Translations under genes and position numbers: made by a program
Notes under the pieces: generated by a model
Databases searched by the model: none
What the model saw: the letters and a program-made list of their open reading frames with translations, nothing else
Told to the model about the DNA's origin: nothing
Part shown: positions 3,386-41,830 of the stretch, one piece after another
Numbering within the stretch: position 1 is the stretch's first letter
How the letters are laid out: each line of letters starts with the position of its first letter
From: a virus
Reading direction: 5' to 3' (one strand)
Virus record (IMG/VR): IMGVR_UViG_3300046674_000314
Location: 1-64,000 of that record
Length of the DNA stretch: 64,000 bases

Positions 3386-4057
3386 CTACGCTGAAATATC
3401 CTCAGGAGATTTTAACGCAATTACTCTCGCGCGGGTAGTGGAAGCGGGCAAAAAGCGACCGGCTTCGGTGAATGCGATGCGCGGCGAATTCGAGCCGCCT
3501 TGCAAAACGAGTTGCGCCTTTCTGGCGTCGCCGATCAGCACCGGCGGCGCAACGGGATACCCCTGGCGAGCGTTGAAATCCTCCGGTGCGCCGATGAGCT
3601 TCGCCGGATAGGGCGGAACCTCGCCGCGCATCTTGTAGCCCCGATACCGGGTCACGAACTCGTTCTGCGTGAACGGGTACTGCTCGACGTCGACGCGGCA
3701 GAGCTTGATCCAGCCGCCCATATCCTCGACGACGCGGTGCACGAGCGGATCGTCGAACACGACCGAATATTGGTCTCCGCGCGTGCGAATCGCGTAATCG
3801 ACGGCCGACCATGCGGTATTGGCCGAATCCTTTGTCGACCCTTGCAGCATTTTCACGATGTCGGCGGGCTTCGGGCACCACTGCCCCGAATCGGGGTTCA
3901 TTGCGTGCTGACCGAGCGCGCGCTCGACCGCAGCAACGTCGAACGGCGCCATTGCCTGCGTCCAGACGGTTAGCGCGAACTCGGAAAAATCCTGCCGGTA
4001 GAACGCATGCACGTCCGCCAGCACTGCGGCAAGGCGAAGTTGATCACTCTGTTTCAT
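3386..4057 (-). CDS. Replication-region protein (DUF6475-like)
   Basis: 223 residues from MKQSDQLRLAAV; ATG at 4057 follows AAAGGGGAATAGCG. Segments such as LTVWTQAMAPFDVAAVERAL and PDSGQWCPKPADIVKML match my memory of a family found in Burkholderia and other proteobacterial phages directly after the DUF1376 initiator, a place taken by helicase loaders in lambda-like phages. A helicase-loader role is only an inference from that position. It overlaps the DUF1376 gene by 14 bp, so the two are probably translated together. Confidence 0.75.
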   Translation of the reverse strand: MKQSDQLRLAAVLADVHAFYRQDFSEFALTVWTQAMAPFDVAAVERALGQHAMNPDSGQWCPKPADIVKMLQGSTKDSANTAWSAVDYAIRTRGDQYSVVFDDPLVHRVVEDMGGWIKLCRVDVEQYPFTQNEFVTRYRGYKMRGEVPPYPAKLIGAPEDFNARQGYPVAPPVLIGDARKAQLVLQGGSNSPRIAFTEAGRFLPASTTRARVIALKSPEDISA

Positions 4058-4916: not shown

Positions 4917-5251
4917 GCGACCGCCCTTGCCGCTTCGAACTCCTGGCGCGCTAATTCTTCTTGGTGCTCGCGGTAGTTGATCGCGTTGCACAGAGTATCG
5001 AGGTCGACGGCGACGCCGAGCGACATAAAAATCCCGTACTGGAGCACGCGAGCGCTTGCATACGAGAGGTTCTTTTGTCCAATGCGAACCATCTCGAAAC
5101 CCCTGTAGCTCACTCCCGCCGCCTCACAAATTGCCATCATGACGGGCGTTCCGGCTTGCTTCCAGACCCGGTGAGCGGTCAGCGCCGGAAGTGCTCGAAT
5201 CTGTGTGTCGTACTCTGCTGGAACGCCGTACATGTTCTTTTGGCCTTGCAT
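4913..5251 (-). CDS. CII/Cro-type regulator, first leftward gene
   Basis: 112 residues. ALTAHRVWKQAGTPVMMAIC followed by EAAGVSYRGFEMVRIGQKNL looks like a small helix-turn-helix fold; the rest is a helical C-terminus. It lies immediately downstream of the promoter with three AGAGAGT sites and faces the repressor gene at 5456, the classical arrangement for Cro or CII. Which of the two it resembles cannot be told from sequence alone. The promoter overlaps the operator array, so this gene and the replication genes behind it are probably repressed in a lysogen. Confidence 0.7.
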   Translation of the reverse strand: MQGQKNMYGVPAEYDTQIRALPALTAHRVWKQAGTPVMMAICEAAGVSYRGFEMVRIGQKNLSYASARVLQYGIFMSLGVAVDLDTLCNAINYREHQEELARQEFEAARAVA

Positions 5252-12263: not shown

Positions 12264-13181
12264 TCATGCGAACAACTCTGGCTGACGGTCGAGAAACCTC
12301 TTATCCTCTGTGGTCAGGCGCTTGCCTAGCTCGCTGTATCCCCAAGCGTTATAAGCCCAGCGCGCATAAGTATTATCTCGCAAACGATCGATTTCGAAAC
12401 CTTGATCTTGTATGCGTTTTTCGACCGCTTGGGACATTAGCGGCGCGAGATTGTCGTAATGCTGGCCCGCAACTTTCGCGTTCGGAGACTGGGAGGAAAA
12501 CGCCAGAGTCTTACCGTCCATGAATATGTTCCCGTGCGCACCGATCTGAACCCACGACGAGGAGTCGACGGAATACCATGGGTACCGCTCCATGAGTGGG
12601 GTGCTGGTAAGCCCGAAGCCATGTACCTTGATCTTTGGACGGCCAGCCCCATCGCAAAGGTACTTGCCCCAAATTCTGTCCAGCCAATGAAATAGTTGTG
12701 GAGTACTAATAGGCACCATACCGCCGATGGTAATGTATTCATAGTTCGCCATGTAATACTCTAGGTACCGCTCGTCCTCGCCATAGTGAAAGCATGGGAG
12801 CGGGCGAACGCCAAGCTGTTCCATAGCGAGTTGATTTTGATAGGTCTTCAATGGGTCACCAATACCGTCAAGTACGGATGCCATCATATCGTTATTTTCG
12901 TATCGGATCAGGTCCGAATTATGGTGTATCCATTGGCAGTACGCCGGAAGGTTGACGTCCACCCCCAATGAGAAAGCAGAGAAGGCGCCCGAGTCGAGGA
13001 ACACCTTGCGACCGCTTTCTCGTATGCGGTCTCGAAACGCATCTTTGTGAATGTAGTGGTACGATTCGAGATAGTTATCGACCGAATCAAGCGCCATCTG
13101 TTCATGATTATTGAGCTTGTCATATGCGGTCGACCCCTTATAGAAGTTCGCAGTGAAAATACCGGCGATGTAGAGATTCAT
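12264..13181 (-). CDS. dpdA: DpdA-like DNA 7-deazaguanine transglycosylase
   Basis: 305 residues. Predicted to swap guanine in phage DNA for a 7-deazaguanine base, as tRNA-guanine transglycosylase does in tRNA. The TGT-like barrel is seen in VFLDSGAFSAF (residues 60-70, equivalent to the DSGGFQ motif with the general acid/base Asp), CFHYGED (130-136), VHGFGLTS (186-193) and YSVDSSSWV (203-211), whose Asp206 is in the place of the nucleophile. The tRNA-TGT zinc site (CxCxxC) is absent. Length and motifs match phage DpdA proteins. It sits in one operon with folE, queD, queC and queE, which supply the precursor, and overlaps the upstream membrane gene by ATGA. The sequence alone cannot say which base is finally inserted. 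Confidence 0.88.
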   Translation of the reverse strand: MNLYIAGIFTANFYKGSTAYDKLNNHEQMALDSVDNYLESYHYIHKDAFRDRIRESGRKVFLDSGAFSAFSLGVDVNLPAYCQWIHHNSDLIRYENNDMMASVLDGIGDPLKTYQNQLAMEQLGVRPLPCFHYGEDERYLEYYMANYEYITIGGMVPISTPQLFHWLDRIWGKYLCDGAGRPKIKVHGFGLTSTPLMERYPWYSVDSSSWVQIGAHGNIFMDGKTLAFSSQSPNAKVAGQHYDNLAPLMSQAVEKRIQDQGFEIDRLRDNTYARWAYNAWGYSELGKRLTTEDKRFLDRQPELFA

Positions 13182-13402
13182 TTGACCTCACTCCGCACGC
13201 CATCGGGGCAATCATAAACATAGACGTATTCTGCAAGCTTACCATGACGGCGCCCGGTTGGTTGCTGAGTGATTAGCTCGCAACCATGTGATTCTAAGAA
13301 CTTTTCGTGCTTAATGGAATCGTAGGTTGCAATTCCCAGCCCGGCAGCTACCACAATCAAAATTGCGATCAAAGTCACGCTCAACCAGGTGTCTTCTTTC
13401 AT
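13178..13402 (-). CDS. Small membrane-anchored protein between folE and dpdA
   Basis: 74 residues: one N-terminal membrane helix (LSVTLIAILIVVAAGLGIAT) then a soluble part with two Cys (HGCELITQQ and VYDCPDGVRSEVK) probably outside the membrane. It overlaps dpdA by ATGA and lies 6 bp from folE, so it is made with the modification enzymes. Nothing indicates that it takes part in base synthesis. Possibly an unrelated inner-membrane moron. Confidence 0.7.
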   Translation of the reverse strand: MKEDTWLSVTLIAILIVVAAGLGIATYDSIKHEKFLESHGCELITQQPTGRRHGKLAEYVYVYDCPDGVRSEVK

Positions 13403-13408
13403 GGCGGA

Positions 13409-14062
13409 TTACTCGTTGGTTAAGGCCAGAAATTCAGCGCGGGCGGCTGGTTCAGTTTTCATCACGCCGCGCAATGCGCACGTCACAGTATCGGAGTTAT
13501 GCTGGGCGACTCCACGCGACTCGACGCACATATGCTTTGCATTGATGTGGACACCAACCCCCTTCGGGTTCAAATGCTCCATCAACGCGTCAGCAATTTG
13601 CGTCGTCAATCGCTCTTGGACTTGGAGTCGTCGCGCGAAGGCGTCAGCAAGCCGGTCCAGCTTACTAAGACCAAGCACCCGACCATTCGGGATATAAGCG
13701 ATGGTACAGCTTCCGATGATAGGAGCCAGATGGTGCTCGCAATGACTATAAATGCGAATATTCTTCCGCACGACCATTTCGTCATAGCCTTCGGCCCCAT
13801 CGTCGAATACCTTCAGCAGCCCGCCAATGTCCACATGGTAGCCGCTGGTCCAATGTTCCCAAGCCTTTGCGACCCGCTTGGGCGTTTCGAGCAACCCACC
13901 GCGCTCGGGGTTCTCGCCGATCACAACGTCCAGCAGATTGCGCACGACTTGCTCTTTCAGGCTTCGCGCGCTCGGGACTCGCCCAACCGCAGCGGTCATG
14001 CTATTGGCGCGGTTGAACAGAAGCGGGGAACCTTCATCTTCAGGGAAAAGATCGTTTTTCAT
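13409..14062 (-). CDS. folE: GTP cyclohydrolase I
   Basis: 217 residues. Converts GTP to 7,8-dihydroneopterin triphosphate, the first step to preQ0. The type I active site is intact: SHCEHHLAP (106-114) and HMCVESRG (177-184) give the zinc ligands Cys108, His111 and Cys179; YIPNGRVLGLSKLDRLAD and FARRLQVQERLTTQIADAL are the substrate and assembly signature. Length is typical. It directly follows queD (TAAATG). A phage-owned FolE raises the precursor flow for DNA modification instead of folate. Confidence 0.96.
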   Translation of the reverse strand: MKNDLFPEDEGSPLLFNRANSMTAAVGRVPSARSLKEQVVRNLLDVVIGENPERGGLLETPKRVAKAWEHWTSGYHVDIGGLLKVFDDGAEGYDEMVVRKNIRIYSHCEHHLAPIIGSCTIAYIPNGRVLGLSKLDRLADAFARRLQVQERLTTQIADALMEHLNPKGVGVHINAKHMCVESRGVAQHNSDTVTCALRGVMKTEPAARAEFLALTNE

Positions 14063-14557
14063 TTAGTCTTGGAATGCGCTAGGAAAAGCCAGTTTTTCGG
14101 GAATGTAGATTGCGCTGTTGCCCGCATGCTCGGAGCACTCGCAAGATACGACTTTCAGCCCATAGGCTGAAACAGCGCCGCTGTAATCCGCATTAATGAC
14201 GGAGTTGGCAATCTCCCACGCTTCTTCTGCAAAGCGCTCGACACCGACACCCTTATGAAAAATGCGGACTTCAGCAACCCCGGCGCGTTCCATTGCCATG
14301 AACAGGCCCATATCAGGATCGTCATAGGCGACGGCAATCTTGTGGTCAAAAGTCGCTTTGAGTGCGTCTTTCAGCGCTTTAAGCCCGCCAAAGTCCATCA
14401 CCCAGCCACGTTCGTCCAGCCTATCAGCGCTGAACACGAACTTGAACCCGAGCGCGTAGCCATGCACCAACTGGCAATGGGAGTGGTTGGCTCGCCATTG
14501 CCGGAAAGCGCACGAAAGCCCTTGTTCCTGCCCGTAGGATTTCGTTGAGAGATACAT
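14063..14557 (-). CDS. queD: QueD-like 6-carboxytetrahydropterin synthase, variant metal site
   Basis: 164 residues, second step of preQ0 synthesis. MDFGGLKALKDAL, FDHKIAVAYDDPD and the C-terminal VVSCECSEHAGNSAIYIP fit the T-fold pterin synthase family. The metal-binding region is unusual: CAFRQWRANHSHCQLVHGYA (16-35) keeps Cys28 and His32, but the first His of canonical QueD (in AAHRL) is Phe18 and the third (HGH) is Tyr34, while His25 and His27 are new candidates. I recall the CAFRQWRA...HGYAL version from other bacteria and phages. It overlaps queC by one base. Assignment to the pathway is strong from context; catalytic detail is inferred. Confidence 0.85.
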   Translation of the reverse strand: MYLSTKSYGQEQGLSCAFRQWRANHSHCQLVHGYALGFKFVFSADRLDERGWVMDFGGLKALKDALKATFDHKIAVAYDDPDMGLFMAMERAGVAEVRIFHKGVGVERFAEEAWEIANSVINADYSGAVSAYGLKVVSCECSEHAGNSAIYIPEKLAFPSAFQD

Positions 14558-15231
14558 TAGACCGTTTCTCCTGCCTTATACTGCTCCCAGCCATTCGCGC
14601 GCAGCTTACATGCCGGGCACTCGCCGCAACCCGCACCCCATTCGTGCGAGAGTTGCCGGTCGCCTTCGTAGCAGGTATGCGACATGGTCAACACTTCGTC
14701 AAGCACCCCCGCTTCCTTAGCCGCTGCGAACGTTTCGGCCTTGTTCAGATACATTAGCGGAGTGGCGAAATGAATGTTGGTCTGGTAACCGATATTCAGC
14801 GCATTTTCCAGAGCAACGATGAACTGTTGACGGCAATCCGGATAGCCCGAATAATCGGTCTGGCACATTCCACCGATGACAGTATCCGCGCCTTTTTCTT
14901 GCGCGTATGCGTGCGCGAAGGTCAGCAGCAGCGCATTACGATTCGGCACGAAACTGTTGGGAACGCCGGTCATACGCGAATGCGGGTCAGCAACCGCGTC
15001 CGTTTCATTCGTCAACGCCGACGAGACCATTGAACCGAGCGCGCGCAAATTCAGAATTTCATACGGAACGTTGAGCTTCGCTGCGATCTTCTTGGCTTGT
15101 AGCAGTTCGACCAGATGGCGTTGCCCGTAATCGAACCCGAGAGCCAGCACTTCGTAGCCATTTGCAAGAGCCATGCCGAGAATGGTGGTCGAGTCTTGCC
15201 CACCCGAGAACAGAACGATAGCTTTGGACAT
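14557..15231 (-). CDS. queC: 7-cyano-7-deazaguanine (preQ0) synthase
   Basis: 224 residues. Converts 7-carboxy-7-deazaguanine to preQ0 with ATP and ammonia. The PP-loop ATP motif SGGQDST is at 9-15, DYGQRH at 34-39, VPNRN at 95-99 (usually VPGRN), and the zinc cluster has Cys187, Cys202, Cys205 and Cys208 in the form C...CGECPAC. Length is that of standard QueC; there is no added amidotransferase domain as in the Gat-QueC fusions of phages that make archaeosine-type DNA. This points to preQ0 as the product of the operon. Downstream queD starts within its stop. Confidence 0.96.
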   Translation of the reverse strand: MSKAIVLFSGGQDSTTILGMALANGYEVLALGFDYGQRHLVELLQAKKIAAKLNVPYEILNLRALGSMVSSALTNETDAVADPHSRMTGVPNSFVPNRNALLLTFAHAYAQEKGADTVIGGMCQTDYSGYPDCRQQFIVALENALNIGYQTNIHFATPLMYLNKAETFAAAKEAGVLDEVLTMSHTCYEGDRQLSHEWGAGCGECPACKLRANGWEQYKAGETV

Positions 15232-15240
15232 TTGATGTTC

Positions 15241-15321
15241 CTAGTTGAGATAGAAGTACAGACCGGTCAGCAGAGCGGCCCAACCGAGCAACGAGTATGC
15301 AGCGACTTGGACGGGATTCAT
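15241..15321 (-). CDS. 26-residue membrane peptide in que operon
   Basis: MNPVQVAAYSLLGWAALLTG then LYFYLN. One hydrophobic helix with almost no soluble part, lying in the gap between queE and queC, 8 bp after the queE stop. No ribosome site is strong, so translation may be coupled to queE. Function unknown. Confidence 0.5.
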   Translation of the reverse strand: MNPVQVAAYSLLGWAALLTGLYFYLN

Positions 15322-15329
15322 TTTTGTAT

Positions 15330-16091
15330 TTACTCCATTCCGATCAGCTTATGCGTCTGCAAGCAAAGTATATATCCAAATTGCATTGTAGACTTAATGG
15401 CACGGCGTAGATTCATCTCGTTCTTTTGTTCATCTGCTTCGTAGAGATTCGTCGTGTACTGCACCGTGTTCTTTTCTTCGGCGGGCTGCACATAGATCGG
15501 CCCGCGATATCCCTCATGCGGCCTTGCGGGGGCGGCTGGCAAGCCCAATACGGAGCTTGGCAAGCCATCTTTTTCCAGCACCGAGCCAGCATTGACCACA
15601 TATTTATACGCGATAATCAGGGGCCAAAGGTCTTCATGTACCTTGCCAGCTTTGGGGCTGACAACTACGCCAAATTGCGGGTGCTTTTTCGGGATCGGTT
15701 CGCGGCCCCACGGCGAGAGCGTGCCATTCGTCTCGACCTGCACTTCAAACCGGTTGACGCGCAAGCCTTTGATTAGCGGGATGATGTTCTGCCGGAAAGG
15801 TTCGCCGCCCGTGATGACTACCAGCGGATTAGCCACGGACTCGTAACTAGCACCCATTGTAGCGATTGCTCGCGTAACGATGCTTCCGACTGATTCGTAG
15901 GCGCTTCCAGCTGTGTACTCAGTATCGCAACCAGGACACTGTAGATTACAACCAGCGAGCCGAATAAAAACAGCTGGGCGTCCGACATGTGGCCCTTCCC
16001 CTTGGATGGTATAGAAGATCGAATGGATCGACAGGTCGCCATTCTCCGAACGCTCGGACTTAACCGGCGCTTGCTTATTGATTGGGATCAT
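15330..16091 (-). CDS. queE: 7-carboxy-7-deazaguanine synthase (radical SAM)
   Basis: 253 residues, third step of preQ0 synthesis. FYTIQGEGPHVGRPAVFIRL (26-45) is the substrate-side signature of QueE; CNLQCPGC (48-55) gives the radical SAM cysteines Cys48, Cys52 and Cys55; TGGEP (94-98) binds SAM. VETNGT and VVSPKAGK further on fit the family. It is the promoter-proximal gene of the modification operon, so all five enzymes may be made from one message beginning in 16092-16318. Confidence 0.95.
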   Translation of the reverse strand: MIPINKQAPVKSERSENGDLSIHSIFYTIQGEGPHVGRPAVFIRLAGCNLQCPGCDTEYTAGSAYESVGSIVTRAIATMGASYESVANPLVVITGGEPFRQNIIPLIKGLRVNRFEVQVETNGTLSPWGREPIPKKHPQFGVVVSPKAGKVHEDLWPLIIAYKYVVNAGSVLEKDGLPSSVLGLPAAPARPHEGYRGPIYVQPAEEKNTVQYTTNLYEADEQKNEMNLRRAIKSTMQFGYILCLQTHKLIGME

Positions 16092-17120: not shown

Positions 17121-17315
17121 CTACTTCTTTTCCGGCGCTTCCATTCCGAACTCGCGGGCCTCATTTCGAGCTAGGATAAAAGCATGCGCGGCGGTCCAGA
17201 GATAGCCAGCCCCTAACACATTAGGGCACGCACTGATCCGATAATACCCGTCGATCAGTTGGATATGCGGTTTGTTCCATCGCGGCGCCCGCATGGTTTT
17301 GTTCGAAAAGCCCAT
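17121..17315 (-). CDS. Small protein of unknown function
   Basis: 64 residues from MGFSNKTMRAPRWNKPHIQL; GGGAG precedes the ATG, which overlaps the stop of the previous gene (TGATG). The sequence DGYYRISACPNVLGAGYLWT then AAHAFILARNEAREFG looks like a small alpha/beta protein. No family recognised. Confidence 0.65.
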   Translation of the reverse strand: MGFSNKTMRAPRWNKPHIQLIDGYYRISACPNVLGAGYLWTAAHAFILARNEAREFGMEAPEKK

Positions 17316-18091
17316 CACACTCCCCGCTCTGCTTTCCATTTACCGAACTGCGTCGCCGCAGTACCCGGGTTGATGCCTTCAGATTCGCATTGCACAATGA
17401 CGCCTTTGCGCACCAGCTTGATATAATCCGGGGTGACTTCTGCCGGACGATTTGCATAGATCGCGTCCGCAATATCCCAAACCCGCTTGGTCGCGCCGGG
17501 CTTGCGCGGGGCGCTGGGTTCCTTCGGCTCCTTCGGCTCTTTCGCCTTCGTGGGCGCCCCGCCTTCGACCTTTGCAACCCCTTGCTGCTGATTGGCTGCC
17601 TCGACCCCGCTGATAATAGCCTGATGCGTCGCACGGCTTACCGGCTCGTCCGGTTCCAGTTCTTCGGTCGGAGCGACATAAGGCTCGTCATCAAGAGGCT
17701 CGTACCCGCGATCTTCTGCTGGCAAACCAGCCAACGGGTTCCCCGGTGAGTCGTCATAAGCTTCTGCTGGGTACAAGGGACCCGGGATCGCTTGCGCATC
17801 GTCAAGCTTCACCAACTCTTCTTCGCTGGTCGGGTACTCGGACCAGCCAGCCGAATAGGCGCGCAGTTGCTCAATAGCCACAGGATAATCCGGCGCTTCT
17901 TGCCCGCTCATATTCGTGTACAGCCGCGCCATTTCTTCCTTGGTGAACACGGTCCAGAGCTTCCCATCCTGACTATCTACAATCTCTGTGGATACATCGG
18001 GGAACAGGTGCTTTTCGATCAGCATCATGTGCGACATTTTGCTCGCCGCTGCTACCATCTTCAGGTTATCTCGGTCAATCAGGATAAGCAT
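17315..18091 (-). CDS. Protein with C-terminal VWxxAD module (copy B)
   Basis: 258 residues. N-terminal 60 residues (MLILIDRDNLKMVAAASKMS onward) form a small domain of unknown type. A long acidic, Pro- and Tyr-rich linker follows to about residue 195, then basic KAKEPKEPKEPSAPRKPGAT and the shared module: TKRVWDIADAI up to GINPGTAATQFGKWKAERGV at the very end. A DNA-binding tail on an acidic linker fits an adaptor or regulator; that is inference. GGGAGAAACC precedes the ATG, and a CGTGC-type promoter lies at 18121-18149. Confidence 0.75.
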   Translation of the reverse strand: MLILIDRDNLKMVAAASKMSHMMLIEKHLFPDVSTEIVDSQDGKLWTVFTKEEMARLYTNMSGQEAPDYPVAIEQLRAYSAGWSEYPTSEEELVKLDDAQAIPGPLYPAEAYDDSPGNPLAGLPAEDRGYEPLDDEPYVAPTEELEPDEPVSRATHQAIISGVEAANQQQGVAKVEGGAPTKAKEPKEPKEPSAPRKPGATKRVWDIADAIYANRPAEVTPDYIKLVRKGVIVQCESEGINPGTAATQFGKWKAERGV

Positions 18092-20363: not shown

Positions 20364-21299
20364 TCACAATGATGGGTGGTGCTGCCAATCGGGGCACCCT
20401 GATAGCTGCCGCGTTTTATCTAGCATAGCATTATGCGTGCTGCACCACCAGGTTCCATCTGTCTGCGGACTGGCGGCTGCGCAGGTTCGACAATTCATAT
20501 CCGGCGCGTCGCCAAAGTGACATACCCGGCGCTCGTCGCAGTACTTGCACTTCCAGAACGATTCATTCTGACTCAGCTTGGGTGGCGCCTCGACCGCAAA
20601 AATGATCTTGTGGGCGCGCTCTCGAAAGAACAGCGCGCAATCCGGATCATACTCGACAATCTCGAAATAGAGTTCGTCGTTATCCTTGCAGCATGCAGCA
20701 TACAGCCCATGCGTCAGCTTGTAATACTCCATGTACTGCTGCATCTGCACATAATGTTCTAGCTTGGCTTTCTTGACGCCTTCGGGCGGAATGACCACAA
20801 TGCCTTCGCGGTCCACTTCCCCAGCCAGCTTTTTAAATGACTTCAAGTTGTGCGTCTTGAATTCAGCGAGCACCGGTACATCGGGCATTTCCGGGATGCC
20901 GAGAATTACACCGTCAATGGCTGATCCGTAATGACCGCCGTAATACGAGACTCGGAATTGCCGACCTTCGGCTTCTTCTTGCCAGACCTGACAATCAATA
21001 GTCCGGAACATAGCCACAAAGCGTGCTTCCTCCAAGTGGCCCCGATTGAACAACCGCAGCATGCGGCCCGAGAATTTGGCGGGTTTAGTCCAGCGCCATT
21101 TGTACCAGAGTTCCCGCGCGCATTCCCGACCCGATAGGGAAATCCCCATGTGGCTACGGAATCGGTCATGCTGCGAATCATCATAGGCGTCACCCACGTC
21201 CATGATGTGCTCTTTCAAGAACCCTTTGAAGCGGCGCCCCTGATCGCGGTAGATCGCTGCGTCAATTGCTTCCTTGGTCTGAGTGGCGAGACGGATCAC
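20364..21299 (-). CDS. PD-(D/E)XK exonuclease, Cas4/RecB-like, with Cys cluster
   Basis: 311 residues from a GTG that overlaps the previous stop (GTGA). The nuclease motifs are GSAIDGVIL (Asp129), LAEFKTHN (Glu146 and Lys148) and YVQMQQYMEYY (QxxxY at 185-189). One Cys (GREC, 60) before and a set after (CKYC 251-254, Cys260, CRTC 270-273) resembles the iron-sulfur cluster of Cas4 and AddB-type enzymes. Predicted 5'-3' or 3'-5' single-strand resection for recombination; direction cannot be told. It is neighbour to a Sak4-like ATPase and SF2 helicase. Confidence 0.9.
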   Translation of the reverse strand: MIRLATQTKEAIDAAIYRDQGRRFKGFLKEHIMDVGDAYDDSQHDRFRSHMGISLSGRECARELWYKWRWTKPAKFSGRMLRLFNRGHLEEARFVAMFRTIDCQVWQEEAEGRQFRVSYYGGHYGSAIDGVILGIPEMPDVPVLAEFKTHNLKSFKKLAGEVDREGIVVIPPEGVKKAKLEHYVQMQQYMEYYKLTHGLYAACCKDNDELYFEIVEYDPDCALFFRERAHKIIFAVEAPPKLSQNESFWKCKYCDERRVCHFGDAPDMNCRTCAAASPQTDGTWWCSTHNAMLDKTRQLSGCPDWQHHPSL

Positions 21300-21550
21300 T
21301 TTCTCTCCCGAGCTTTCATCATTGTGTCAGCTTGGCGGTATGCGGCATGCGCAAGCCTATCCAGCGCCGAACCATTGACCAGTTCTTGACCGGTAATATG
21401 CTGCATCAGTTCGGGGTTTGCCATCATTCCGGTCAATGCAGCAATAGCGAAACGATCGCGCAGTTCTTGTTCTTCGAGTCGACGTTGTGCGAAAATGCGT
21501 TCTTGCTCTCGCGCTTGGTCTCTTACCTGCGCATGTGTATACTGATACAT
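21296..21550 (-). CDS. Small helical protein
   Basis: 84 residues: HAQVRDQAREQERIFAQRRL then EEQELRDRFAIAALTGMMAN; almost all helix. GGAGAGATT precedes the ATG. A terminator (21565-21586) separates it from the DUF669 gene upstream, so read-through or a separate start is needed. No family recognised. Confidence 0.65.
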   Translation of the reverse strand: MYQYTHAQVRDQAREQERIFAQRRLEEQELRDRFAIAALTGMMANPELMQHITGQELVNGSALDRLAHAAYRQADTMMKARERK

Positions 21551-21564
21551 AATCTCTCCAGTCG

Positions 21565-21586
21565 AAAAACCCCGCGCTTGGCGGGG
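21565..21586 (-). terminator. Rho-independent terminator after DUF669 gene
   Basis: On the minus strand CCCCGC-CAAGC-GCGGGG is followed by TTTTT (plus-strand A run 21565-21569). A strong terminator inside a leftward gene run suggests partial read-through control. Confidence 0.85.
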
Positions 21587-21612
21587 TCTGTATCACCGCG
21601 AGCGTGGAGCGA

Positions 21613-22308
21613 TTACTTCCCTTGTTGCCAGGGCGGAACTGCGCCATTGCCAGCCGGTGCGGCGGCTTGGGTTGCGGGCGCTGCCGCGGTTGCCGGATTG
21701 AATGCGGGAGCGGCTTGGGCTGCGGGGGCCGGTGCTGCGGCGGCTGCGGGCGCGGCTTGGGCTGCGGCTTGCATCGCAGGGGCTTGGGCGGCTGCGGCTG
21801 CATTCGGCTGGCTCACGGGCTGCGCTGCCGGGACGTGCGGCTGCGTAGCTGCGGCTGCGCCAGCGTCATACGGGTCATGACGCAGGATGTTGTTGCGTGC
21901 CGGACGAGCTTTGATTTCGGCGCCGGTGTTCGGATTGACCGATGCCGGGGTCTCGTCTTGGTAGTCGACTTCGATCATCATGACCTTGTTCGCCAACAGC
22001 GTCAAGTCGCCGCCTTGCAGCACGCCGACCGCATGGCCGATGGACGACAGCTGTTTCATGGCGATTTCAGCGGCTTGCGTCGAGCCGGTATGCCACAGAT
22101 TCAGGTTCTCGTAAACCTTGCGGCCTTTGAATTCACCTTCGGTGATGACGAATTCCAGCGCCAGATTGTGACCGGTGGCTGCATTGCCATTCGCTTTGAC
22201 CTGCATGTTGCGGATCGCTGCGGCATATGCGCCAGCCGGAACCGGTGCGCTACCGGCGACGAACGGGTCGATGTTGGTGACGTCGAAATTGAATTGGATC
22301 GGTTGCAT
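21613..22308 (-). CDS. DUF669 protein, probable ssDNA-binding partner
   Basis: 231 residues. The N-terminal 130 residues match DUF669: VPAGAYAAAIRNMQVKANGN, LALEFVITEGEFKGRKVYEN and LNLWHTGSTQAAEIAMKQLS. The C-terminal 100 residues are an Ala/Pro/Gln tail that ends PPWQQGK, like the flexible acidic or Pro-rich tail of SSB proteins. DUF669 genes lie next to Sak or Sak4 recombinases in many phages and probably act as their SSB; here the Sak4-like gene is 30 bp upstream. AAAGGACAAAC precedes the ATG. Confidence 0.85.
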   Translation of the reverse strand: MQPIQFNFDVTNIDPFVAGSAPVPAGAYAAAIRNMQVKANGNAATGHNLALEFVITEGEFKGRKVYENLNLWHTGSTQAAEIAMKQLSSIGHAVGVLQGGDLTLLANKVMMIEVDYQDETPASVNPNTGAEIKARPARNNILRHDPYDAGAAAATQPHVPAAQPVSQPNAAAAAQAPAMQAAAQAAPAAAAAPAPAAQAAPAFNPATAAAPATQAAAPAGNGAVPPWQQGK

Positions 22309-22338
22309 TTTGTTTGTCCTTTGATTAGGAGTTGGGGC

Positions 22339-23175
22339 TTACGATTGGTTCTGAATCTTGTCGATCAGGTATGACAAGTCTGGGCGCTCCCACGGTTCGA
22401 GCATTCCCGATCTGTCTTTAGCATCATACGATGCGTCGGGCTGGGTTTGCAAGAAACGATAGAGCTTATTTGTCGTTGCATCAGTCGCTACCCCGATGCG
22501 AAAAGTTTCGTCAAGCCAATAGGGCGACTGCGGCCCCAGTTGCTTTCCGGGAAAATCAGGGGCGCCGACAATCGCACCTGATACACCATCTTGCTTGCTG
22601 CCGAGCTTGGCCGTGATGCAAACATGCTTTCCCGCGAGATTGCGAAACTTGCGGAAATACTCCGCAATAATGTCCGCCACTTCGCCGTAGGCTTGCCGAC
22701 CATCGGCCTTTGCTGCCTTAGCTGCATTCAACATCACTTCGGCCGTCTCGCTCGACGAATCCCAAGCCACCGACTTGTAATATCCCTGATTGGCGGGCGC
22801 CGCAAGCCAATCATAGGCCGCTTTCAGCTGTAGACCATTGCGAACTACGATCACCGGGCTATTGGCTGCACCTTCAGCACGAGCACGCGCACCGGCGTCG
22901 TCCATTCCCATACCAAGGAAAATCTTAGTCAGATTCCCCACGCTGAGAGACAACAGGCCGCTCTCCGACGAGATAAAAACTATCGGCTGCGGCATCGTAG
23001 CGCACAGGACTGTCTTTCCAACCCCTGCCGGGCCGTACACTAGCGTCTTGACCCCGTTGCTGGTCGCTTGCTCTTTGACCGTTGACCAAACGATTGGCGT
23101 AGGCGTTGTGGAATTCGGGGCCGAAGTTGCTGGTGATTCCGGCGCCGCAACCCCCGGCGGTAATGGTGCGTTCAT
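22339..23175 (-). CDS. Sak4-like RecA-fold ATPase
   Basis: 278 residues. TLVYGPAGVGKTVLCATMPQ carries the Walker A (48-55); FISSESGLLSL (68-78) and SVAWDSSSE are the second and third strands of the AAA_24/Sak4 core. Sak4 proteins are single-RecA-domain annealing helpers that work with SSB in lytic and temperate phages. The first 30 residues are Pro/Thr-rich and disordered. AAGGAAAAGC precedes the ATG, yet its first 251 bp are also read in another frame by the upstream gene. DUF669 and exonuclease genes follow. Confidence 0.88.
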   Translation of the reverse strand: MNAPLPPGVAAPESPATSAPNSTTPTPIVWSTVKEQATSNGVKTLVYGPAGVGKTVLCATMPQPIVFISSESGLLSLSVGNLTKIFLGMGMDDAGARARAEGAANSPVIVVRNGLQLKAAYDWLAAPANQGYYKSVAWDSSSETAEVMLNAAKAAKADGRQAYGEVADIIAEYFRKFRNLAGKHVCITAKLGSKQDGVSGAIVGAPDFPGKQLGPQSPYWLDETFRIGVATDATTNKLYRFLQTQPDASYDAKDRSGMLEPWERPDLSYLIDKIQNQS

Positions 23176-28600: not shown

Positions 28601-28987
28601 ATGAGCGCAAAATTCTATGCGAGCAAATCGGCAGCGGTTCGTCACGCGGTTAACTATATCGGTGGCGATTGGGAAAAAGAGTATTTGGTACATGAGGTCG
28701 AACTACCGGATGGCGGAACGTACTTCGCTATCGTTTCTCGGAAACATGCGCTTGCGCCGATGCCAACCAGCAGAGGGTCAGCCGTATCTGAGCGGAAGAC
28801 AGCTGTTGCGCCGTCCTTTATCCCGCGTTCGCGCATCAAGGGCGCCACGCGTCGGGTTTGGGATATTGCGGATTTAATGCAAGGCAAGGCCCGTAGAGAG
28901 GTCTTAGAAGAGTGCCGTCGACAGGGGATCGCATCAGGCACCGCAGCAACGCAGTACCAACGCTGGAAACAAGCGACGAGGAAATGA
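28601..28987 (+). CDS. Protein with C-terminal VWxxAD module (copy C)
   Basis: 128 residues. The N-terminal part (YASKSAAVRHAVNYIGGDWE then a YFAIVSR strand) resembles the start of copy D at 33.9 kb. After a linker, the shared module occupies residues 80-128: GATRRVWDIADLM up to GIASGTAATQYQRWKQATRK. It is a rightward gene alone in a leftward region, with its own terminator, which is the layout of a regulator. Likely a small DNA-binding protein by its basic module; not proven. Confidence 0.75.
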   Translation: MSAKFYASKSAAVRHAVNYIGGDWEKEYLVHEVELPDGGTYFAIVSRKHALAPMPTSRGSAVSERKTAVAPSFIPRSRIKGATRRVWDIADLMQGKARREVLEECRRQGIASGTAATQYQRWKQATRK

Positions 28988-30100: not shown

Positions 30101-32392
30101 ATGTACCAAGCTACTCAATGGTGGGATAATATCCCCCATGCGATGCGAGACCATGCGCATTTCATGTGCGCGACCGATAAGAAAATACCATTCAATCCAT
30201 ATACTGGCTCGTTCGGCAAAGATGACCCTGCCAATTGGATGACCTATGGCGATGCTTGTTATTGGGCTGGCGATAAAGATTTGGTGATCGGCTTTGTACC
30301 GAGACCCGATGACCCATTCGTTATCATCGACCTCGACAATAAGCCCGAAAGCAACATCAGCGCTGAAGACGCCGCGCTGCGCGATCAGCTATTGGCGTGG
30401 GCCATTGAGAATACCTACGTCGAGAAGTCATCGAGTGGGAATGGCTACCATGTGGTCATCACCGGCGCATTGCCAGCGGATATTAACCGCGGTACAAAAC
30501 GAGGCGTCGAGGCATATGCTAATAAGGGCTTCGTTATCCTGACGGGCAACATTATCAGCAAGACGCGGGAAATTGCGCATTCGCCTAGTACTTGCGAATG
30601 GCTTTATGCGACCTATGCCGCAGGTACAGCCACTGATCGGTCAGAAGGGAATGACTTTTATTCTCTGAATCAGGAACAGATCAACAATCCCCCGCAATGG
30701 GAGCTTGACGAAGACCAAAAGTTTTTGGATTCAATCAAAGGCTGGAAAAATGAGAACAAGATTCGTTCCTGGTTCTATGCTGAAGATACCGATGCGACCG
30801 GGGTAGGCGGATCGGTTGGCGATTTACAATTGGTACAGCTGTTTGTTGAATTCACCCGAAAGCGCAAGTATCCGGATGAATCGGCAATGCGTATGTTTCT
30901 TCGCTCGCCGCGTGGTCGCAAGCTTGGGCGCAAAAACGGATCGTGGCCTAAATATTGCATGACCACATTGCTAGCTGCAAAGAATATGGTTGCTAGCGGC
31001 AAAGAAAAACAAACGGGCTTGGCTGAAGGCGTGAACAATATGTTGGCTGAATTTGAAGCCAAGCGCTTGCAGCATGCGGAACTGCATACCGCTAATACAT
31101 TGAATCGTGCAGCCGGTATCCCGATGCCGCAAGTGCCGAATATGCCCCCAGTGGTTTACAAGCACAAATTTGATTTCCTAAAGCCCAGCGACATTTTAAG
31201 CGAAAGCCCTTTGGAGTGGGCGCTCGAAAACGTTTTTCAAATGCGCTCGGTCAATGCTATTTACGGCTGGTCTGGCGTCGGCAAGTCGTTTGTAGCTATT
31301 GACTTAATGTTTGCATTTGCCGAAGGTCGGGAATGGTTCGGCCATGAAACGCAACAACTGAGCGTGACCTATCTTGCGCTTGAAGGTGGCGATGGTTTGC
31401 GTAACCGCTTGCATGCTTATATGCACGGTTCTAAAAAACATAGCTTGCCTGATAGCATCGACATTTATCGGGGCAAATTCAATTTGCGTTCTAAGGAAAT
31501 GATCGGTGAGTTTATTGACCAGCGCAAACAGGCTGAAGCTTTCGGCGGCGTAATCTTTATTGACACCTTTGCGAAAGCTATACCGGGCGCCGATGAAAAT
31601 AGCGCAAATGATATGGGAGACGCAGTTGTAGCTGCCGAATTGATGAAAGATCAGTTGGGTGCGTGCGTCATTATCGTTCACCACAGTACCAAGCCTGATA
31701 AGGTGACCGGAATTGCGGGCGGCTTGCGCGGATCGGGCGCTATTCAAGCCGGTATTGATGGCGTGATGCAGGTTGCCAAGCGTGAAGAGTGGGACGAGAA
31801 AAATGGAACGCTCATTAGCCGCACGCGCTTTATTGTTATGGACAAAGTGAAGGATGGCGAGGACGGTACCCATTATCCGTTTGATCTTCCGAAAGTCAAG
31901 ATCGGTGAGCGCACCCGAAAGAGCGGGGAAATTGTTGATGTATTCTCATGCCATGTGGTCAATTTGCGCGACCAAGTGAACAGCAGAATCGCGCCGGTTG
32001 CAAGCAATAATGTGCCGACCTATAGCGAAGCCGAACATGCAGGAACAGCAGCGACCCGAGTGCCGAAAGCACCGCGCAGTGGAGCCAAGTCACAAAGTGC
32101 AGCGAATGAGCAACACGCAAATAGCTATGAGTGGGCGCAATTGATACAGACCGCGTTGACCTTAGATGCGCAAAGAACCCACTTTGCAAATAAGGGAAAG
32201 TTTGGGGCGCCACCAGATAAAACCGCAACCCCTAGAAGCGCCCTTGTGAATCTCGTTTGGGAGATTGCGAACCCGCCAGAATTGACCCGAGAGTTGAAAA
32301 AGGCTTTGATGAATACGTTAGATTACCAATATAAAAGTGGTAAAATTGGGCGCGCTATGAACGATGGTACTCAATACTTTTGGCAAAGTTAG
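30101..32392 (+). CDS. Primase-polymerase and RepA-type helicase fusion
   Basis: 763 residues from MYQATQWWDNIPHAMRDHAH; GGAG lies 12 bp before the ATG. The N-terminal PrimPol-like part has FVIIDLDNK (73-81) with catalytic acidic residues, SSGNGYHVVI (111-120) and GVEAYANKGFVILTGNI. The C-terminal helicase is RepA/AAA_25-like: YGWSGVGKS Walker A (388-396), YLALEGGDGLRNRL, FIDTF Walker B (486-490) and the IIVHHSTK segment typical of this group. Replication proteins of plasmids and phages have this order and load at iterons; a cluster of such repeats follows directly. This is a second replication system next to the DUF1376 set at 4 kb. Confidence 0.92.
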   Translation: MYQATQWWDNIPHAMRDHAHFMCATDKKIPFNPYTGSFGKDDPANWMTYGDACYWAGDKDLVIGFVPRPDDPFVIIDLDNKPESNISAEDAALRDQLLAWAIENTYVEKSSSGNGYHVVITGALPADINRGTKRGVEAYANKGFVILTGNIISKTREIAHSPSTCEWLYATYAAGTATDRSEGNDFYSLNQEQINNPPQWELDEDQKFLDSIKGWKNENKIRSWFYAEDTDATGVGGSVGDLQLVQLFVEFTRKRKYPDESAMRMFLRSPRGRKLGRKNGSWPKYCMTTLLAAKNMVASGKEKQTGLAEGVNNMLAEFEAKRLQHAELHTANTLNRAAGIPMPQVPNMPPVVYKHKFDFLKPSDILSESPLEWALENVFQMRSVNAIYGWSGVGKSFVAIDLMFAFAEGREWFGHETQQLSVTYLALEGGDGLRNRLHAYMHGSKKHSLPDSIDIYRGKFNLRSKEMIGEFIDQRKQAEAFGGVIFIDTFAKAIPGADENSANDMGDAVVAAELMKDQLGACVIIVHHSTKPDKVTGIAGGLRGSGAIQAGIDGVMQVAKREEWDEKNGTLISRTRFIVMDKVKDGEDGTHYPFDLPKVKIGERTRKSGEIVDVFSCHVVNLRDQVNSRIAPVASNNVPTYSEAEHAGTAATRVPKAPRSGAKSQSAANEQHANSYEWAQLIQTALTLDAQRTHFANKGKFGAPPDKTATPRSALVNLVWEIANPPELTRELKKALMNTLDYQYKSGKIGRAMNDGTQYFWQS

Positions 32393-32394
32393 AT

Positions 32395-32536
32395 GGTCTG
32401 AATATAATGGTCTGAGTCTGAAAATTGTCTGAATCGTCAGACCGTTTTTCAGACAATTCAGACCAATTCAGACCATTTTCAGACATGCGGTCTGAATCCT
32501 TATGGGATAAGGGATGTAGCGAGTTTCAGACTGGTC
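32395..32536. repeat. TCTGAA/TTCAGA repeat cluster, probable replication origin
   Basis: TCTGAA at 32397, 32417, 32428 and 32491 (TCTGAG at 32411) and its reverse TTCAGA at 32448, 32457, 32467, 32478 and 32525 (TCAGA at 32437): eleven copies in about 140 bp. AATTGTCTGAA (32423-32433) and TTCAGACAATT (32448-32458) form an 11-bp inverted repeat. An A/T-rich stretch follows to 32640. Location right after the replicase gene is that of an iteron origin. Not coding. Confidence 0.8.
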
Positions 32537-32660
32537 TTAATCCTTATGCGCGCGTCGCATAGCATTTCACCCTTTCAGGGATGAAATATGCGGCGAAATG
32601 CGAAGGCAAATTTATTTTTCAGAATAGGTGAATTTTTCTAACTTTTTGGAGAAGTGAGAA

Positions 32661-32897: not shown

Positions 32898-33344
32898 ATG
32901 GGTACAGGAGTAGAAAGGGGTGATCCTGCTGGACTAGCGGGTGCTAGTGAGCATAGCCAGCAGGTAGCGTTGATGGCCGCGGTGGCGCAGTATGTGGAGA
33001 GCGAGCGGGCGCTGCGGTGGCTCTATGCGGTGCCGAATGGCGGGAGCCGTGGTAGCGATCAACGGTCGGCCATGATTCAAGGTGGCATGCTGAAGGCGGA
33101 AGGCGCGAAAGCGGGCGTGGCTGATCTTTGCTTACCTGTGGCTAGGCATGGCTATCACGCATTTTACATTGAGATGAAAAAGCCCGGTGGCGGCGCGCAG
33201 AGCAAAGAGCAAAAAGCTTTCGAGGTACATTGCCAGCAGGAAGGCAACCTCTATGCCATTTTCCACTACTGGCACGAAGCCTTTCGCGCGCTCATGTGGT
33301 ACCTAGGCTTTGAGCATTCGAAAGCTTGGCCGCTGCCTTCGTGA
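32898..33344 (+). CDS. VRR-NUC nuclease
   Basis: 148 residues. LYAVPNGGSRGSDQRSAMIQ, KAEGAKAGVADLCLPVARHG and AFYIEMKKPGGGAQSKEQKA are the motifs of the VRR-NUC family, a PD-(D/E)XK fold used as a structure-specific nuclease on branched DNA; the Asp in VADL and the ExK in YIEMKK are the catalytic residues. Phages use it to resolve branched DNA before packaging. GGAGGACTAG precedes the ATG. Length is typical of the stand-alone phage form. Confidence 0.93.
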   Translation: MGTGVERGDPAGLAGASEHSQQVALMAAVAQYVESERALRWLYAVPNGGSRGSDQRSAMIQGGMLKAEGAKAGVADLCLPVARHGYHAFYIEMKKPGGGAQSKEQKAFEVHCQQEGNLYAIFHYWHEAFRALMWYLGFEHSKAWPLPS

Positions 33345-33421: not shown

Positions 33422-33961
33422 TCACTTGGAATTAAAGCGCTTGCTGGCCTCCGCTGCCGCTGCCTCATTCGCCTTTGCCGAATCATTCGCCTTTTTCCAA
33501 GCCTGATACTGGGTACGGGCGGTGCCGCTAGCGATCCCGCGCGCCACGCATTCGTCCTGCACTTCTTTGCGGCTGGGCTTCGGCAAGCCCGCCGCGAGCG
33601 CTGCCGCGATCATTTCATCGGCAATCGCCCAGACTCGCTTAACCGGGCGTTCGACCGAGCTAAGGCGCACCCACAGCTTGCCATTGAGCGTTGATTCGCT
33701 CGCTTGCGCATTGGCGATGCGTTCGGCTTCTTCTTCGAGCGCGGCCGTATCCACTTCAAAATCGCTTGCCTTCGGGAAGGTCCATACATCGGTCTTGCTG
33801 GCTTCGGTCAGGCAAGCTTGCCATGCATTCGAGCGGTCAATCGGCTGGCGAATTTGCACCGTCCATGCGCCATCCACTTTTTCCACAAAGGCGCTTTCTT
33901 TCCATGCGGCGCCAAAGTTTTTGCGAGCGGCATTCATTGCGGCGATATTGGTGGCAAACAT
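33422..33961 (-). CDS. Protein with C-terminal VWxxAD module (copy D)
   Basis: 179 residues from MFATNIAAMNAARKNFGAAW; CAGGAGAGAGAAA precedes the ATG. The N-terminal segment is similar in pattern to copy C (helix with AA...A, G..W, then strands KVDGAWTVQIRQP). Residues 104-158 hold the shared module: PVKRVWAIADEM up to ASGTARTQYQAWKKAND, then an Ala/Glu/Lys tail as in copy A. Leftward gene among rightward ones, with its own CGTGC-type promoter. A DNA-binding role is inferred from the basic module. Confidence 0.75.
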   Translation of the reverse strand: MFATNIAAMNAARKNFGAAWKESAFVEKVDGAWTVQIRQPIDRSNAWQACLTEASKTDVWTFPKASDFEVDTAALEEEAERIANAQASESTLNGKLWVRLSSVERPVKRVWAIADEMIAAALAAGLPKPSRKEVQDECVARGIASGTARTQYQAWKKANDSAKANEAAAAEASKRFNSK

Positions 33962-34031
33962 TTTCTCTCTCCTGAAAGTCAAAAAAGTGGGATCAACCGC
34001 TCTAGTGGATCGAATACGAATCCATGTAGAG

Positions 34032-39223: not shown

Positions 39224-41830
39224 ATGGATCAAGCACAACTTGCGGATTTGTTCGAGCGGGAAATGACGCCCGACACAAGCCCCTCCAATGTGGCTATGCC
39301 CGGTGTTCCCGCGCAAGAAATCACAGTGATGGGTGTTGATGACCGTGAACCCGCAGGATTCGAGGACGAAGGCGACATTAAAATGTCGGACGAGGAAATC
39401 GACAATATCCTTGGGATGCATATCCGCAATGCGGTGAACTGGTACGGCTCCGAGATTGCCACCGCCCAAGCGAAGGCGATGGAGTACTACCTCGGGTTGC
39501 CACAGGGTGATCTGGCGCCGCCCGGCGTTGCAGGTCGCTCGCAAGCGGTCGACACCACGGTTTCGGACATTATTGAGTGGATGATGCCCGCGCTGATGGA
39601 AATGTTCTTTGCGTCAGGCAATGTGATCGACTATGAACCGCGCAACCCTTCAGACGAGAAGGGTGCAAAGCAAATGACGCACACCGCGAATTATGTCATC
39701 AATTCGCAGAATCCGGGCTTTCAGGTCTTTCTTGACTGGTTCAAGAATGCTCTGTTGAACAAGCTTGGCGTCGTCAAATGTTTCTGGGAACCGACCGAGA
39801 ACCATTCGCGCGAGTACTTCAATCAGCAGACCGATGTGCAATTGGGCTTGCTGGTCGACGACCCTGACCTCGAAATCATCAAAATCACGAGCTATGTCGA
39901 TCCGCATGCAGAACGTGCGGAAATGGACCGGTTTAAGCAGCAATCCCAAGCCTTCGGCCAGTGGCAGCAAGCCGCAGCCCAAGCGAAGGCGCAAGGGCTT
40001 CCGTGGCCGCCCATGCAGCCGCCAGCGCCCCCGCAGCCGGGGCAACCGCCGCAAGCCGCCCAGCCGCAGCCCATGCAGCCCCCGCCACGGCCCGCCCCGA
40101 TCAACTTGAAAAAGTTGCCGCAGCTTCACAATGTGATCGCACGGCGGGCGAAGAAGTCGGGCAAAGTGTCCATCGAAGCGATGAATTCGGAAGACTTTAT
40201 TGTCGATCCGCGCTCGCGTCGCGTCGAAGACGGCTTTTCGGCTCACCGGCTCAAGCGCACGATTGGTTACCTGCGCCAGCAAGGCTACAAGAACGTCGAT
40301 GATATTTCGTCGGACTCCGATGCTGAGAGCGCGGAGAATTCCGAGGTACAGCTTGCCCGCCAATCGCTTCAAAACACCTATGTCCCGCCGAATGCGACCG
40401 AGGACTACGGTGACGAGTCGATGCGGGAAGTCTGGCTGTATGAGTGCTATCTCCCGATTGACTGCGACTTGGATGGTATTCCGGAATGGCGCCGCATCAC
40501 GCGCGCCGGTGACCAAATCCTCGAAAATGTGATCGTAGACGGTCCTCCATTTGCCACATTGTGCCCGGTGCCGATCCCGGGTCTGCTCTATGGGCGCTCG
40601 CTTGCCGACCTTGGCATGATGACGCAGTATAGCAAAACCGGCTTGCTTCGTTCGCTGATCGATAATGTCAACGTGCAGGTGAATGGCCGCACATGGGCTA
40701 TCGAATCGCAGGTCAATATCTCGGATTTGCTCACCAATCGCCCAGGTGGCGTGGTGCGAGTCAAGTCTGCGAACGCGGTCGGTATGCTGCAACAGGGTCT
40801 GGCAGATAGTCAAGGCGCTTACCAGCTACTTGAGTTCCTCGACAGCCAGTCGCAGGAGCGCACCGGAGTCACCAAATACACGAAGGGTACTGATTCCGAC
40901 GCTTTGAATTCGACGGCTACTGGTATCACGAATCTGACGGAGCGGGCTGACCTTCGGGTCAAGCTGGTCGCGCGATGCTTCGCTGAAACTGGGGTCAAAC
41001 GCCTGTTCATGCTGATCCAGAAGGAACTCGCCAAGCACCAAGACCAGAACATGGTTTTCAAGGTGAACGAGGACTGGGTAGACGTCGATCCCCGCACGTG
41101 GCATAACGAATATATTCTCGTGCCGCGCGTTGGGCTGGGAAGTGGCGACCGCAGCAAGAAGGTACAGCAGCTGTTGCAACTGATGGGCGTGCAATCCACT
41201 GCTGCGCAAGCTGGTCTTACAACGCCGGAGAATCTGTATAACTCGGCGTGCGACCTGGTGGATGCGATCCAACTCGGCAAGCCGCAGCGCTACTTCACGT
41301 TGCCCGATCCCAATGCACCGAAGCCGCCGCCCCCGCCCGATCCCAACATGGTTCTGGTGCAGGGTCAGTTGCAAATTGAGCACCAAAAAGCTCAGGACAA
41401 GCGGGAAACGGATCAGTTCCAAGCGCAGATTGACGCACAGAACGACCAGCGCGATTTCGAGCATAAGCAAGCACTCGAAGCCGCCAAGCTGCAAAACCAA
41501 CGCGAAATCGAAGCGGAACGCCTTGCGTGGGAGAAAGAGAAGTTCTACGCACAGCTGACCGCCGATCGTGAAATTGCAGCGCTCAAGGCAATGGCAACCA
41601 CGCAACAAGAAGCGGATATGCGCCGTCAGACTTTGGCGGATCAGAACGCCGCAGCGCTGCGTGATGCACATGTGGATAGCGCCCATCGCGACGCAGACCG
41701 CCAGCACGAAGCAGAGCAAGCAGACGCACAACGGCAGCATGACGCCGCGCAAGCAGAAGCGGACCGACAGGCACAAATTGAAATTGCCCGTCAGAAAGCC
41801 GCTCAAATCACGCCGGGTACAGCTGAATAG
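39224..41830 (+). CDS. Portal protein, P22-like, with long coiled-coil tail
   Basis: 868 residues. The dodecameric portal forms the DNA entry ring of the capsid. VNWYGSEIATAQAKAMEYYL, WMMPALMEMFFASGNVIDYE and SKTGLLRSLIDNVNVQVNGR are the stem and clip signature of the large podoviral portals (P22 gp1-type). A Pro/Gln-rich insert of about 30 residues lies near 262-292. The last 150 residues (AQDKRETDQFQAQIDAQNDQ onward) are a long Gln/Ala/Arg coiled coil, as in portals with a barrel. Length is above that of P22 gp1 (725) because of insert and barrel. Confidence 0.93.
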   Translation: MDQAQLADLFEREMTPDTSPSNVAMPGVPAQEITVMGVDDREPAGFEDEGDIKMSDEEIDNILGMHIRNAVNWYGSEIATAQAKAMEYYLGLPQGDLAPPGVAGRSQAVDTTVSDIIEWMMPALMEMFFASGNVIDYEPRNPSDEKGAKQMTHTANYVINSQNPGFQVFLDWFKNALLNKLGVVKCFWEPTENHSREYFNQQTDVQLGLLVDDPDLEIIKITSYVDPHAERAEMDRFKQQSQAFGQWQQAAAQAKAQGLPWPPMQPPAPPQPGQPPQAAQPQPMQPPPRPAPINLKKLPQLHNVIARRAKKSGKVSIEAMNSEDFIVDPRSRRVEDGFSAHRLKRTIGYLRQQGYKNVDDISSDSDAESAENSEVQLARQSLQNTYVPPNATEDYGDESMREVWLYECYLPIDCDLDGIPEWRRITRAGDQILENVIVDGPPFATLCPVPIPGLLYGRSLADLGMMTQYSKTGLLRSLIDNVNVQVNGRTWAIESQVNISDLLTNRPGGVVRVKSANAVGMLQQGLADSQGAYQLLEFLDSQSQERTGVTKYTKGTDSDALNSTATGITNLTERADLRVKLVARCFAETGVKRLFMLIQKELAKHQDQNMVFKVNEDWVDVDPRTWHNEYILVPRVGLGSGDRSKKVQQLLQLMGVQSTAAQAGLTTPENLYNSACDLVDAIQLGKPQRYFTLPDPNAPKPPPPPDPNMVLVQGQLQIEHQKAQDKRETDQFQAQIDAQNDQRDFEHKQALEAAKLQNQREIEAERLAWEKEKFYAQLTADREIAALKAMATTQQEADMRRQTLADQNAAALRDAHVDSAHRDADRQHEAEQADAQRQHDAAQAEADRQAQIEIARQKAAQITPGTAE

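Follow-up and report, generated by a model that had tools for sequence, protein, structure and literature searches.

A two-way, helically spaced GTCTGA array directly behind a PrimPol-RepA-type replicase gene as a candidate iteron origin of phage DNA replication

The 64,000-nt stretch of DNA analysed here (the window; positions 1 to 64,000 of IMG/VR record IMGVR_UViG_3300046674_000314) belongs to a virus contig of 73,180 bp, whose products include a portal of the SU10 type and a phage terminase. It harbours the gene of a modular replicase, followed by a non-coding stretch of 268 bp which contains a compact array of short repeats (Table 1). In the replicase, an N-terminal part with a match to phage NrS-1 PrimPol (E about 1e-10) is followed by one matching the RepA helicase of RSF1010 (1g8y, 1.3e-5; AAA_25, 6e-31), with RepA (1nlf) as best structural match of the helicase part. 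A homologous domain and catalytic motifs (IDLD, SxSGxGxH, Walker A and Walker B were all found) place the protein among the NrS-1-type PrimPols, and a homologous hexameric helicase domain places it in the RSF1010 RepA family. For its last 105 residues a winged helix is predicted at moderate confidence (pLDDT about 70-76); the top structure matches are likewise winged-helix domains, with modest scores from which no family can be named. Translation likely starts at ATG 30101, directly past the upstream ORF.

Table 1. Features of the replicase locus and other replication-related genes of the contig (positions are those of the window unless stated otherwise)
Feature	Position	Strand	Description and basis
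Helix-turn-helix-like ORF, 70 aa	29884-30096	+	resembles BcepGomr gp61; assigned by inspection
Replicase ORF, 791 aa	30017-32392	+	NrS-1-type PrimPol, RSF1010-RepA-type AAA_25 helicase, probable C-terminal winged helix
Replicase C-terminal part, predicted winged helix	32108-32392	+	candidate site reader
Sigma-70-like promoter TTGGCA-17-TATAAT	32380-32408	+	11/12 match
Imperfect 84-nt hairpin	32393-32476		four forward sites paired with four reverse sites; folding
Array, 11 GTCTGA sites	32396-32531	both	word count and spacing
Small second hairpin	32478-32496		sites 32479 (-) and 32490 (+); folding
Further imperfect hairpin	32553-32595		between array and A/T-rich stretch; folding
A/T-rich stretch	32605-32660		71% AT; candidate unwinding segment
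Resolvase-related protein	32898-33344	+	phrog_824, phrog_5702
DUF1376/primosomal/O-like gene	4044-4991	-	tandem 7-bp repeats (TGGTTAG-like) inside, 4494-4540
DNA polymerase (phrog_1252)	L351:5492-7480; record 68791-70779	-	PHROGs search; outside window
Processivity factor	L351:7984-8991; record 71283-72290	-	outside window

The small ORF upstream of the replicase gene, which has no match in Pfam, probably encodes an early regulator. The order of helix-turn-helix-like ORF, replicase gene and resolvase-like gene is the same in Burkholderia phage BcepGomr, whose gp62 is the only other full-length relative of the replicase (29% identity). A phrog_7864 C-terminal region is common to the products of 17315-18091 (-), 28601-28987 (+) and 33422-33982 (-); these three proteins make up a small paralogous family flanking the replicase.

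An initial annotation had listed eleven copies of TCTGA in both directions, beginning 3 bp past the replicase stop and having no protein-coding explanation. All of this holds: every copy extends to GTCTGA, five sites being forward (32396, 32410, 32416, 32427, 32490) and six reverse (32437, 32449, 32458, 32468, 32479, 32526) with the TCTGA cores spanning 32397-32530; the stop codon occupies 32390-32392; and no ORF of at least 60 aa is present in 32393-32660. The wider consensus of the array sites is about AAATGGTCTGAAT, and a degenerate twelfth site (GTCTTA) lies at 32534-32539. The word occurs 33 times in the window, every other 160-bp stretch containing at most two copies, and among 2000 dinucleotide shuffles of the array region the commonest 6-mer reached a maximum of 9 (mean 3.0). 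Neighbouring sites are separated by 14, 6, 11, 10, 12, 9, 10, 11, 11 and 36 bp. For the ten sites from 32396 to 32490 the best period is 10.36 bp, i.e., one helical turn (R 0.79; p 0.00065 versus random placement, an optimistic value since the null ignores the mirror symmetry of the sites). Neither this spacing nor the 84-nt hairpin, the overlapping promoter and the candidate second origin at 4.5 kb had appeared in the initial annotation.

No relatives of the array at the DNA level were found among phage or plasmid records. A scan of viral contigs for the pattern GTCTGA-x-GTCTGA-x-GTCTGA retrieved many unrelated loci, and no new replicase neighbours were among the matches listed, near-identical copies aside. 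Two such near-identical contigs (L003 and L004) carry the array without any change, so the evolution of the array itself cannot be read from these close relatives. The core GTCTGAA is shared by the Neisseria-type DNA uptake sequences, which are a misfit here, since the sites form a single cluster behind one gene.

The 11-bp inverted repeat mentioned in the initial annotation exists as perfect copies (32393-32403/32466-32476 and 32423-32433/32448-32458), but the actual structure is larger, namely the 84-nt hairpin, in which forward sites 32396, 32410, 32416 and 32427 are partners of reverse sites 32468, 32458, 32449 and 32437, respectively. Predicted folding energies of this hairpin are -28.7 and -29.0 kcal/mol on the two strands (z -9.2 and -10.1), and no shuffle equals them. 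The segment 32550-32610 folds with a z of -3.4, and the hairpin at this place is a putative part of the origin region. The A/T-rich segment reported to follow the array is present, and few 55-mers of the window are as rich in A and T; rather than adjoining the array, it begins about 74 bp past the last site; the CGphi29-type relatives described below have no A/T peak matching it. No DnaA box (TTATNCACA, up to one mismatch) occurs in 32393-32660, so the locus was not classed as a DnaA-dependent iteron plasmid origin.

Arrays at the equivalent place were found behind related replicases. Non-redundant loci were chosen by replicases sharing one module with that of the window, and comprised the CGphi29-type Toprim-RepA (n=37), HK578-type RepA (n=8) and PrimPol-DUF3987 (n=59) groups; in each locus, repeat content was compared along its whole length. 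The 250 bp following the replicase gene were the most repeat-rich segment in 24/37, 6/8 and 14/59 loci, respectively, while control positions (upstream, in-gene and other ORF ends) yielded no top segment in any group; the segment behind the gene did not rank first in 45 of the 59 PrimPol-DUF3987 and 13 of the 37 CGphi29-type loci. Most CGphi29-type arrays start 5-19 bp past the stop; the commonest spacing in this group is 10 bp, and the words vary (for example TGGACAA, GGGGACAT, GGGTACA, CGGTACA, CGTACCA). The repeated word differs among lineages, with position and spacing being kept, as in loci L341 (GGGTACA at 9, 19, 29, 38, 63, 73, 93 and 102) and L345 (CGGTACA at 11, 21, 31, 40, 65, 75, 96 and 105). 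A set of CGphi29-type loci (L274-L284, L292-L295, L298, L301, L302, L305 and L308) is devoid of an array behind the gene, although their relatives carry one.

Isolates with an array behind the gene are HK578 (seven copies of GCGGGACA), CGphi29 (GGGGACAT) and Vibrio phage 1.076.O (CGGACA). In BcepGomr, a two-way A/T-rich repeat (AAAATAAAT-like) directly behind the gp62 stop is significant versus shuffles; it is of low complexity, and significance is lost upon exclusion of A/T-only 7-mers, when 16 of 152 control windows score equal or higher. Helicase relatives of mycobacteriophages and Gordonia phages have no array, the next gene following at once, and none is present behind the single MAG match from a protein scan of genome contigs.

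The arrays accompany Toprim- and PrimPol-type primases as well as RepA- and DUF3987-type helicases, so that neither the priming preference of PrimPol nor a single helicase family suffices to account for them. As the simplest reader of the sites one may infer a C-terminal DNA-binding domain of the replicase, an assignment kept at this level because site word and replicase segment showed no correlation across 24 CGphi29-type loci (by a crude motif distance). An upstream regulator is less likely to be the reader, since CGphi29 and locus L289 share the word GGGGACAT and yet possess unrelated upstream helix-turn-helix proteins (P22-Cro-type in CGphi29; that of L289 assigned by inspection).

Compact non-coding repeats adjoining an initiator gene and spaced by about one helical turn are among the hallmarks of iteron origins, and both are found here. 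Related arrays at the same place with different words suggest that phage DNA replication most probably begins at this array. It is thus rated probable, on comparative sequence evidence, that the array represents an iteron replication origin belonging to, and recognised by, the preceding replicase. The iteron-like origin behind a PrimPol-RepA gene proposed in the initial annotation accordingly stands as the best-supported reading, since arrays occur behind related replicases far more often than at control positions, with origin activity itself as a presumption. The replicase would bind the GTCTGA sites, probably by its C-terminal winged helix and mostly on one face of the DNA helix. Its RepA-type helicase may then assemble at the array and open the DNA, presumably aided by inverted site pairs extruding as hairpin and by the downstream A/T-rich stretch. 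The PrimPol domain would lay the first primers, to be extended by the phage DNA polymerase (about 69-71 kb). The minima of cumulative GC and AT skew, at 28.6 and 29.8 kb, respectively, weakly favour an origin near 30 kb, the weakness being due to their coincidence with a switch in gene direction.

Among known systems, the phage-inducible islands (PICI/SaPI, pri-rep-ori) carry an iteron-bearing origin on the 3' side of rep, and one island was tested for autonomous replication (PMC6092414). Shared with the present locus are the position directly 3' of the initiator gene, short iterons of element-specific sequence and an A/T-rich segment (PMC6092414). However, two iteron sets flank the A/T-rich part in the islands, whereas here a single array precedes it; the replicase is also different, and the element is a full phage rather than a satellite. 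Assignment to the PICI rep-ori class was therefore rejected, the position being in agreement but the flanking two-set layout being absent.

Plasmid pRN1 requires a 100-nt stem-loop behind its PrimPol gene (ORF904) for replication, and a similar one was pointed out behind the replicase of phage BIP-1 (PMC4234260). The locus resembles pRN1 and Bordetella phage BIP-1/BPP-1 in having a PrimPol-helicase gene with a C-terminal winged helix, a probable one in the present replicase, and a long stem-loop directly downstream, the 84-nt hairpin corresponding to the pRN1-type element of about 100 nt; folding predicts a hairpin downstream of the BPP-1 replicase gene too. In contrast, pRN1 was described without iterons and with an SF3 helicase (PMC4234260), while the present hairpin consists of iterons and follows a RepA-type helicase. 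The oriV of RSF1010 also combines a homologous RepA helicase with iterons and with stem-loops for priming (PMC4234260); iteron binding, unwinding and priming are there distributed over three proteins (RepA, RepB' and RepC), the latter two functions, and perhaps all three, being fused here. NrS-1 PrimPol, which shares the homologous domain, starts synthesis at TTTGGTTA or GTG templates (PMC8718748). Differing from the window, NrS-1 carries TTTGGTTA twice near the middle of its genome, has no described array (PMC8718748, PMC7102993) and possesses a different hexameric helicase as C-terminal part; TTTGGTTA occurs in the window once, i.e., at chance level.

The alpha/ori system of P4 likewise involves a single multifunctional primase-helicase whose winged helix binds origin repeats (PMC4234260), as is proposed for the present replicase, but its primase domain is of the bacterial type. 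The claim that the arrangement equals P4-like origins was too strong, as the replicase derives from other domain families and no P4 iterons are found nearby. The P4 iteron word, GGTGAACAG(A/T), gave no match near the array with up to one mismatch, and the locus was not classed as P4-type. Closer parallels than P4 are the islands, in which the origin follows rep, and the downstream stem-loop of pRN1. In Sodalis phage SO-1 and HK578-type phages (Dhillonvirus), GCGGGACA-type repeats are located directly behind the helicase-primase gene ('region B', already annotated as repeat region in SO-1). This case differs by its word, by the common direction of 6/7 HK578 copies and by a second, similar region A in SO-1. 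Region B (L352:3001-3480; record 40178-40657) resembles region A, and many HK578-like records match at two places; these phages perhaps possess two origins.

Other explanations of the array have to be weighed against an origin. It could be a promoter-operator region, in which a phage regulator, e.g., the 70-aa protein, binds the sites and controls transcription from the sigma-70-like promoter into the genes from 32661 onwards. Indeed, this promoter, equalled by two other 11/12 matches across the window, is located within the array, sites 1 and 2 lying on either side of its -10 box, and helically spaced sites are also typical of cooperative operators. However, eleven sites over 136 bp would be a large number for a single promoter, and no GTCTGA cluster is present in the early promoter region ahead of the regulator gene, the nearest single site being at 29656. 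Furthermore, the array persists in the CGphi29 group while the upstream regulator switches to unrelated families, and only one locus of this group has a promoter match of at least 10/12. A purely regulatory array is therefore judged unlikely, although the promoter inside it leaves room for a regulatory role, alone or added, and origin and operator functions may occur together. It appears improbable, too, that the replicase recognises and primes on the extruded hairpin rather than the word. Such a pRN1-like stem-loop origin would agree with the strong fold directly behind a PrimPol gene, with the requirement in pRN1 and the stem-loop reported for BIP-1 (PMC4234260), and with the folding of the BPP-1 region; yet little of the stem falls outside the repeated word and the flanks belonging to its consensus, a hairpin needs no helical spacing, and the array-bearing relatives L269 and L254 fold unremarkably (z -1.7 and +0.6).

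Quite unlikely is a main origin at the tandem repeats at 4.5 kb with the array at 32.4 kb being accessory or used at a late stage. The protein encoded there is DUF1376/primosomal/O-like, and in lambda O the origin repeats lie inside the initiator gene. This arrangement within O-like genes has been described (PMC11447400), and the repeats are possibly a second, lambda-O-like origin. On the other hand, the skew minima are near 29-30 kb instead, the 7-bp repeat is short with its exact word not above chance across the window, and one origin does not exclude the other. Least credible, and considered very improbable, is a terminator, another RNA element or a chance or mobile repeat devoid of any replication role. 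The hairpin apex (32427-32442) followed by CGTTTTT does fit a terminator pattern, but five terminator-like sites in the scanned region compare with 4.0 expected, and the arrays of relatives are generally not hairpins. A chance or mobile repeat disagrees with the absence of matches in phage and plasmid records and with the single copy of the array in the 73-kb record, the latter speaking against a mobile element.

Returning to the array as an origin, one may tentatively extend this reading to many phages, in which a replicase gene and the array behind its stop could form a replication cassette that is portable, complete in itself and quick to switch its specificity. Such a cassette might comprise PrimPol or Toprim primases and RepA or DUF3987 helicases, with a fixed layout and a word changing from lineage to lineage; the present locus would then be one case with an added hairpin. 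Such primases have been described as fusions with RepA or DUF3987 domains and with winged helices, and in some cases the winged helix was put forward as the part recognising the origin (PMC5862659). While the kind of system is known, this combination and its regularity across replicase types were not found described: a full-text search, whose coverage excludes most subscription journals, retrieved no literature on these arrays. If the proposed function applies, a two-way array with 10-bp spacing behind a primase-helicase gene would predict origins in many phages, cultured and uncultured alike, and NrS-1 PrimPol and RSF1010 RepA would become linked to defined start sites. The changing word beside a conserved enzyme would also provide a natural data set on the joint change of specificity in replicase and origin.

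The DNA polymerase and the processivity factor are encoded beyond the window (Table 1); a search of the record for DNA polymerase A was negative. On account of the phrog_1252 polymerase, PrimPol was no longer assumed to be the sole polymerase. Genes at 12264-16091 (-) match queuine tRNA-ribosyltransferase, QueC and QueE, possibly representing a 7-deazaguanine DNA modification pathway. Two recombination sets are located at 655-1884 and 20364-23175 (-), consisting of SSB and an ERF-type annealing protein, and of a Cas4-type exonuclease and Sak4. The GC content is mostly 57-64% in 1-12 kb and mostly 50-60%, often near 52%, in 12-38 kb. Together with the two recombination sets, this GC step may indicate a mosaic phage.
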